Assembly (NCBI RefSeq): GCF_015354315.1
Contig: NZ_JADKYY010000001.1
Coordinates: 248,001 to 312,000, forward strand
DNA length: 64,000 bases
Source of the DNA: Planobacterium oryzisoli
GTDB taxonomy: Bacteria; Bacteroidota; Bacteroidia; Flavobacteriales; Weeksellaceae
Direction of reading: 5' to 3'
A program made the translations under genes and the position numbers. Within the stretch, counting starts at the first letter, position 1. Each line of letters begins with the position of its first letter. A model generated the notes under the pieces. The model was not told the origin of the DNA. It saw only the letters and a program-made list of their open reading frames with translations, and made no database searches. This document shows, one piece after another, positions 19,839 through 20,678 of the stretch.

Positions 19839-20678
19839 TTATAAAAAATCTAATGGACTTGGTGTCGATTTCTTATCTACATCTGTAATATGAGTGTAAA
19901 TCATGGTTGTTCTAATATCACTATGTCCTAATAATTCTTGTACAACCCGAATGTCAATTCCGCTTTTTATTAAATGTGTGGCGTATGAATGACGCAAAGT
20001 ATGCACACTGCCTTTTGTTGCAATATTGGCTTTTTTCATTGACTTTTTCAAAACTAACTGAACACTTCTTTCCCCGTATTGCTCATCATTAGTTCCTTCA
20101 AATAAAAATACTTTGGGTTTATATTCAATATAATATTCTCGCAACAAACTTAATAACTTATCAGGTAAAGCTACTAACCTATCTTTATTCCCTTTGCTTT
20201 GTTGTATTAACAGTAAATTACTGTCGGATTTTACATCGGTTAGTCTAAGATTTATTAACTCACTTAAGCGCAATCCACAACTGTAAATAGTGGTAAGAAT
20301 TGCTTTATGCTTTAAATTTTCTGTAGCATTTAATATTTTTCTCACTTCTTCTTGAGAAAAGAAAGTAGGCAGTTGGGTTGATTTTCGTTTAGGATATAAA
20401 TAATTTAACTCTATCGATTGATTATTGACCAACTCATAAATTTTCTTAATTGCCCCAACTAAAGAGCGTTGATAAGATGCACTAATATTGTCTTGAAATA
20501 CTTTTTCATTAATAAAACCCTCTATTTCAGCAATAGGTATTTCGTTGAGCGTACGATATTTATTCATATACTCTAAGAATATTTGTGCATAACCACAATA
20601 CGATTTTATGGTATTATTGGCATAGCGTTGCACTTGTAATCGGTCGTGTAAGGTTCTTAATATTGTTTCGCTATCCAT
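19839..20678 (-). CDS. Tyrosine recombinase, candidate cassette integrase
   Basis: A 279-residue recombinase with an N-terminal SAM-like core-binding domain. Catalytic residues are Arg137 (SCGLRLSE), Lys162 (SKGNKD), His226 and Arg229 (HTLRH), His252 (LLGHSD) and the nucleophile Tyr261 (MIYTH). The distance from the LP turn (171-172) to HTLRH is about 55 residues, as in XerD. It is roughly 45-50 shorter than I recall for IntI1, so the IntI-specific insertion is absent. The C-terminus ends SPLDFL, like the SPLD tail of IntI proteins. It is read away from the cassettes, the normal integron orientation. It may act on the attC-like sites; a resident chromosomal Xer function is the alternative. 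Confidence 0.85.
   Translation of the reverse strand: MDSETILRTLHDRLQVQRYANNTIKSYCGYAQIFLEYMNKYRTLNEIPIAEIEGFINEKVFQDNISASYQRSLVGAIKKIYELVNNQSIELNYLYPKRKSTQLPTFFSQEEVRKILNATENLKHKAILTTIYSCGLRLSELINLRLTDVKSDSNLLLIQQSKGNKDRLVALPDKLLSLLREYYIEYKPKVFLFEGTNDEQYGERSVQLVLKKSMKKANIATKGSVHTLRHSYATHLIKSGIDIRVVQELLGHSDIRTTMIYTHITDVDKKSTPSPLDFL

Follow-up and report, generated by a model that had tools for sequence, protein, structure and literature searches.

The window, a 64,000-nucleotide stretch of Planobacterium oryzisoli DNA (assembly GCF_015354315.1, contig NZ_JADKYY010000001.1, positions 248,001 to 312,000), very probably holds a small chromosomal integron of the Bacteroidota, in which the tyrosine recombinase P0001 would be the integrase, exchanging circular cassettes between attI and attC at G^TT without the I2 insertion of the integron integrases (IntI). 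In layout and cassette behaviour the locus is an integron, but its integrase falls outside the accepted definition of the IntI protein. The following features of the integron platform are present: the integrase gene lies beside an attI, and it is divergent from four plus-strand ORFs, each followed by an attC-like site, these being tandem cassettes with imperfect-palindrome sites and TAAC...GTT ends (Table 1). This segment has about 30% G+C, the rest of the window about 45%.

Table 1. Coordinates of the array, the recombinase gene and the neighbouring tRNA gene in the window.
Feature	Position	Strand	Description
tRNA-Ser (TGA)	19670..19755	+	Borders the platform, 84 bp from the 3' end of the P0001 gene
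I2-less integron-type tyrosine recombinase P0001	19839..20678	-	279 aa, ATG to stop
attI	20752..20849	+	Three ACGAAA/TTTCGT boxes, then crossover point G20847^TT
Cassette 1	20848..21456	+	ORF 20865-21323, 152 aa, no family match
attC-like site 1	21334..21459	+	126 nt; model R1 123.5 bits
Cassette 2	21457..23302	+	ORF 21485-23182, 565 aa, OLD/GajA/PtuA-like AAA ATPase, probable anti-phage gene
attC-like site 2	23180..23305	+	126 nt; R1 112.3 bits
Cassette 3	23303..24346	+	ORF 23317-24150, 277 aa, no family match
attC-like site 3, long form	24163..24349	+	187 nt; R1 46.1 bits
Cassette 4	24347..25462	+	ORF 24378-25265, 295 aa, no family match
attC-like site 4, long form	25278..25465	+	188 nt; R1 48.2 bits; end of the array

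In each of the four cassettes the first and the last 10 nt are exactly reverse-complementary to each other, the start and the end being GTTATAGGCA and TGCCTATAAC in cassette 1, GTTATGTGGC and GCCACATAAC in cassette 2, GTTAGCCGCA and TGCGGCTAAC in cassette 3, and GTTAGCAGAA and TTCTGCTAAC in cassette 4. When 73 cassettes from many arrays are considered, the mean perfect run between the own start and the reverse complement of the own end is 8.5 nt, as compared with a mean of 4.1 nt (maximum 4.7 in 1000 trials) when the ends are swapped among these cassettes. Complementary own ends are expected if the cassettes circulate as closed units that are cut at G^TT, and the start of cassette 1 fixes the attI crossover at G20847. 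Crossing over of the cassettes as units at G^TT is also in agreement with the finding of identical cassettes elsewhere, as discussed below, this evidence being that of the sequences. A solitary attC-like site (87.9 bits) is found in the same genome outside the array (G000:C18:10818-10943).

The attI boundary is sharp. The 175 nt from the integrase gene to the crossover point are kept in the genomes G017 and G060 up to AACAATGTT, after which a different cassette follows in each; the integrases of these genomes are 97% and 92% identical to P0001, respectively. The attI is kept up to the GTT in four records (the window and three others), with abrupt divergence thereafter. A diverged copy of the window attI is present in Sphingobacterium faecium pWB1 directly before a tet(X2) cassette, and it carries a remnant of the integrase start, which reads by eye from the DNA as MNSEIIL (MDSETIL in P0001). 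In this record (L180, positions 8820-9003) the genes tet(X2), estT and floR stand behind the diverged window-type attI and the remnant. In the window, TTGTTTCGCTATCCA is present twice between 20660 and 20722, one copy being at the start codon of the integrase and the other some 40 bp upstream of it; it is possibly a binding site or a duplicated start.

The attC-like sites were scored with the covariance model R1, a pattern scan alone having been dropped as too noisy (155 matches in shuffled sequence). Besides the four sites of the window, hundreds are found in related genomes. In 34 aligned short sites, 93.4% of the cells of the stem pattern (R stem of 4 bp, L stem of 10 bp, inner stem of 6 bp) are paired, and two-sided changes are seen in 16 of the 20 pairs. 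The covariation score is 0.631, whereas slid versions do not exceed 0.10 and shuffles 0.163. Clearly, these are conserved hairpins, in which the letters of TAAC and GTT are invariant and the L stem varies in sequence while being constant in shape. The R and L stems are typically separated by a single base in one arm of the hairpin and by five bases in the opposite arm; no base is constantly extra in the L stem. In the L stem, T-G pairs outnumber G-T pairs by 26 to 1, which means that the bottom strand has an A-C mismatch at the place where the top strand has a wobble, a mark of the strand. The sites fall into two size classes, of about 126 and 188 nt, which are mixed within arrays (the window, L034, L047, L052 and L053).

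The catalytic set of P0001 is complete in the ORF translation (Arg137, Lys162, His226, Arg229, His252 and Tyr261) and its C terminus is SPLDFL, all at the positions given in the preliminary description. The distance between the LP and HTLRH motifs, put there at about 55 residues against roughly 100 in IntI1, is measured as 55 residues (LP171 to His226) in P0001 and 97 residues (LP180 to His277) in the plasmid-derived class 1 IntI1 that was used as the reference (L170). The spacing between the lysine and the HxLRH motif is 64 residues in P0001 and 106 to 109 residues in nearly all canonical IntIs. A short spacing of 62 to 65 residues recurs through the P0001 family, in most measurable rows, and the short spacing of P0001 is therefore not due to chance. 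As shown by alignment with a canonical IntI of another Bacteroidota genome, the block missing from P0001 is the IntI-specific insertion. In the AlphaFold2 model of P0001 (pLDDT 92), helix 173-186 runs straight to helix 203-216, with no extra helix in between.

Pfam identifies in P0001 the core-binding and catalytic domains only (Phage_int_SAM_4, and Phage_integrase with an E value of 4e-41), and the additional N-terminal arm-binding domain of phage and ICE integrases is absent from this 279-residue protein, as judged from Pfam and the predicted structure. The integron integrase model TIGR02249 aligns with P0001 in two pieces, omitting the insertion, and gives 198 bits with a cut-off of 265; P0001 also lies below the cut-offs of all Xer models, those of XerC and XerD as well as the archaeal XerA equivalog NF040815 (202 bits, cut-off 220). 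The predicted fold compares with XerA at a Z-score of 23.8 and with the Vibrio integron integrase 2A3V at a Z-score of 22.9 (271 residues, rmsd 3.5 Å).

The phylogenetic tree covers 52 proteins, with the insertion columns dropped, and it holds no phage or ICE integrase rows. The IntI sequences form one clade that excludes P0001, and the Xer rows split off, both with support of 100/100, and P0001 groups with array-heading enzymes of Bacteroidota (support 97-100). The preliminary term "XerD-like" is thus apt for the spacing but not for the descent of the protein. The I2-less enzymes surround IntI, the nearest being from Patescibacteria and archaea, with one Firmicutes row, and the deep branches are weak. 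With Xer as the outgroup, the simplest account would be a single gain of I2 within the I2-less group. The phylogenetic check that had been proposed beforehand places P0001 outside IntI and XerC/D, among array-heading recombinases, in this tree without phage or ICE rows. The contrary case, a prophage-type integrase using tRNA att sites, disagrees with this grouping and with the absence of the extra N-terminal domain; in its favour is the nearby tRNA-Ser.

The enzyme family and the sites are associated. Among 119 related genomes, with family membership accepted for E values up to 1e-40, the integrase family is present in 53 and attC-like sites are present in 69; sites are found in 52 of the 53 integrase-positive genomes and in 17 of the 66 integrase-negative genomes (Fisher p 1e-17, relatedness not being corrected for). 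The one integrase-positive genome without a site (G084) and the 17 genomes with sites but without a close integrase count against the integron reading, though they may carry remnants. The protein search alone finds family loci in many Bacteroidota families, and in the 18 named loci found in this way the sites always point away from the integrase, the gene being co-oriented with the array in 16 and divergent in two. When model R1 was applied to I2-less members from outside the Bacteroidota, no site was found. A canonical IntI is above the cut-off in only one of 295 genomes of the class.

It is proposed that P0001 would exchange circular cassettes between the attI beside its own start codon and attC hairpins, cutting between the G and the TT of GTTR. 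In single-stranded form each attC would fold into a hairpin. Its R stem, which is 10 bp long when the cassette is circular, would be separated by a 1-by-5-nt asymmetric loop at the crossover from an L stem of some 10 bp, and the L stem in turn by a loop of roughly 4 by 4 from the apical stem. P0001 may then recognize how the stems are spaced, the asymmetric loop and a single non-Watson-Crick position that recurs in the L stem, and would do so without fixed extrahelical bases docked by I2. This fits with the observation that neither P0001 nor its sites show the canonical pairing of an I2 helix with fixed extrahelical bases. P0001 is the presumed catalyst of the recombination of these cassettes and a folded single strand its presumed attC substrate; the strand used, the feature read and the way in which a second strand exchange is avoided are likewise what we infer. 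The preliminary description had argued that recombination of the attC-like sites by this enzyme would require a mode of recognition other than that of IntI, and this conditional holds up well, the sites being real and structured, the enzyme standing at their head and the attI being conserved.

It is also conceivable, though unlikely, that the hairpins are not used and that an ordinary Xer-type double-strand exchange acts on the attC-like sites as duplex DNA. In favour of this are the absence of I2, to which single-strand recombination is ascribed (PMC7790495), and a predicted fold that resembles XerA about as much as 2A3V; inverted repeats, even if conserved, could in themselves be used in double-stranded recombination as well. 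The L-stem sequences are, however, diverse yet complementary, which fits recognition of shape rather than of sequence, and the excess of T-G over G-T pairs implies that the two strands are not equivalent. It is hardly credible that P0001 is a degenerate IntI that has lost I2, with the array as a relic of an earlier canonical integrase, although the SPLD tail is common to P0001 and IntI. This candidate was rejected on the tree, from whose IntI clade P0001 is excluded; moreover, I2-less members head arrays in many Bacteroidota families, canonical IntI is nearly absent from the class, and the intact gene is retained at 97% identity across genera that differ in the first cassette at attI.

A tRNA-Ser gene so near to the 3' end of the P0001 gene (84 bp) raises the question of whether P0001 is instead the integrase of an island entering tRNA-Ser, the adjoining attC array belonging to another enzyme. 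Remnants of the tRNA-Ser 3' end and a conserved 85-bp stretch are indeed found beside the 97%- and 92%-identical genes of G017 and G060. In G060 (L197), an intact tRNA-Ser is followed by a broken integrase gene of the P0001 type, and 12 kb further on tRNA remnants stand beside the 92%-identical integrase gene. These two integrase platform copies at one tRNA-Ser (reverse complement of L197, 2138-2660 and 14477-15169) enclose, by inspection, relaxase-like and integrase-like ORFs. Also by inspection, the opposite edge of the 12-kb insert carries a separate, longer integrase-like ORF of 423 aa, which argues against P0001 as the island integrase. No second copy of the tRNA-Ser 3' end is present within the window, so the direct repeat that is a feature of tRNA integrases is missing there. 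The attI, with its sharp GTT breakpoints, is at the opposite end of the gene, and a tRNA is within 1 kb of the gene in only one of 34 other family loci scanned, whereas arrays are general. A P0001 that serves the island and not the array is consequently quite improbable. Integration into tRNA-Ser as the main job of P0001, considered for G060, G017, G016 and G001, was rejected, there being no flanking repeat in the window and hardly any other family member with an adjoining tRNA. Islands that enter tRNA-Ser have probably carried the platform along, and the tRNA-Ser beside it is probably an effect of location. The same neighbourhood is seen again in two related genera, and the association of the platform with tRNA-Ser may well be real. 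A comparison anchored on the Hsp90 gene gave no clean empty site, the gene order differing between genomes.

When compared with sedentary chromosomal and mobile integrons, the preferred integron reading of the locus shares with them the integrase beside attI, the directional array, attC hairpins with R and L stems, the G^TT crossover, the complementary cassette ends, and resistance and defence genes as cassettes. The differences are that the window integrase has no I2 insertion and is outside the IntI clade, the two IntI features of TIGR02249 that P0001 lacks, that the terminal complementarity is 10 nt and not 7 (GTTRRRY), that the sites have the 1-by-5 loop between R and L and no fixed extra base in the L stem, and that many relatives of P0001 are co-oriented with the array. 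With XerA, XerC, XerD and XerH, P0001 shares the organization of a simple two-domain tyrosine recombinase, the short LP-to-HxLRH spacing and the fold, but it differs from these by its SPLD tail, by heading cassette arrays and by the separate position of the Xer clade.

In the accepted account, the acquisition of I2 made a double-strand recombinase able to handle single-stranded attC; I2 and single-strand recombination are exclusive to IntI, and I2 is needed for cassette capture (PMC7790495), a view that stands against the reading preferred here. Standard integron detection requires the IntI-specific domain (PMC9668308) and would therefore miss an I2-less system such as the one that about half of the 119 related genomes searched contain; with IntegronFinder 2.0, only Salinibacter ruber is named as having a complete integron in Bacteroidetes proper (PMC9024848). 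No earlier report of I2-less integrons in Bacteroidota was found in the literature searched, which included no preprints and few subscription papers, and novelty is thereby not proved. We consider it likely that the Bacteroidota hold a widespread second kind of integron, capturing folded attC cassettes without I2, that I2 is a later refinement of IntI and not the invention that enabled integrons, and that the native cassettes of this second kind include tet(X), aadS and ere(D). An I2-less enzyme heading structured cassette arrays makes the I2 account directly testable and offers the missing intermediate, and an I2-less integron gives a concrete mechanism for the movement of these resistance genes among Bacteroidota.

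Identical cassettes are found end to end in different places. A 1029-bp cassette, encoding AadS according to curated models, is 100% identical at the attI of G017, again as cassette 4 of G017, and in G005, and 99.9% identical in G032, the last two genomes being of other genera; a 1327-bp cassette, encoding Tet(X), is 100% identical in G017, G005 and G027, and a 1634-bp cassette, encoding EreD, is common to G005 and G027. The identity starts at the GTT, or at most two bases from it, where the neighbours differ. The platforms of G005 and G027 that hold these shared cassettes have integrases that are only about 40% identical to P0001, which implies transfer of cassettes from one platform to another. 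Plasmids of Empedobacter, Myroides, Bacteroides and Sphingobacterium also carry the 1327-bp tet(X2) cassette with 100% identity over its whole length, and Riemerella pRA0511 carries it with 99.8% identity; in the records examined its flanks diverge from the predicted points onward.

In the tet(X3) unit of Acinetobacter (L085, 5010-5117; L086, 6998-7735), a truncated family recombinase (43% identity) is followed by the cassette start GTTATGTGCC. The unit also holds an attC-like site of which the first 99 model positions remain, cut by an ISCR2-linked segment; at 26 bits this would be a weak match if taken alone. The "XerD"/TnpF protein beside tet(X3) on these plasmids thus resembles P0001 in being I2-less and in preceding a tet(X) cassette start with half an attC of the same class, and differs in being N-terminally truncated, carried by ISCR2 and probably inactive as an integron. 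The published arrangements are xerD-tet(X3)-res-orf1-ISVsa3 (PMC7494873), ISCR2-tpnF-tet(X3) (PMC7722449) and tetX-catB11-IS91-XerD (PMC11194056), and the passages searched in these three papers do not name integron cassettes of this kind. The hand-over of tet(X) to Acinetobacter had been without a matching sequence context, the alignment in PMC7494873 having "returned no hits". In the Chryseobacterium plasmid L087, the start GTTGGGAAAAATCGCCCTT stands after three attC-like sites (12004, 14385 and 17454) and also after the integrase, near 9900; the repeated cassette with this start may hold no ORF. A Myroides plasmid (L179, 1-1915, 3281-5259 and 6728-8583) carries three units of an IS91 transposase and a tyrosine recombinase between cassettes, and these recombinases are about 40% identical to P0001 over its C-terminal part.
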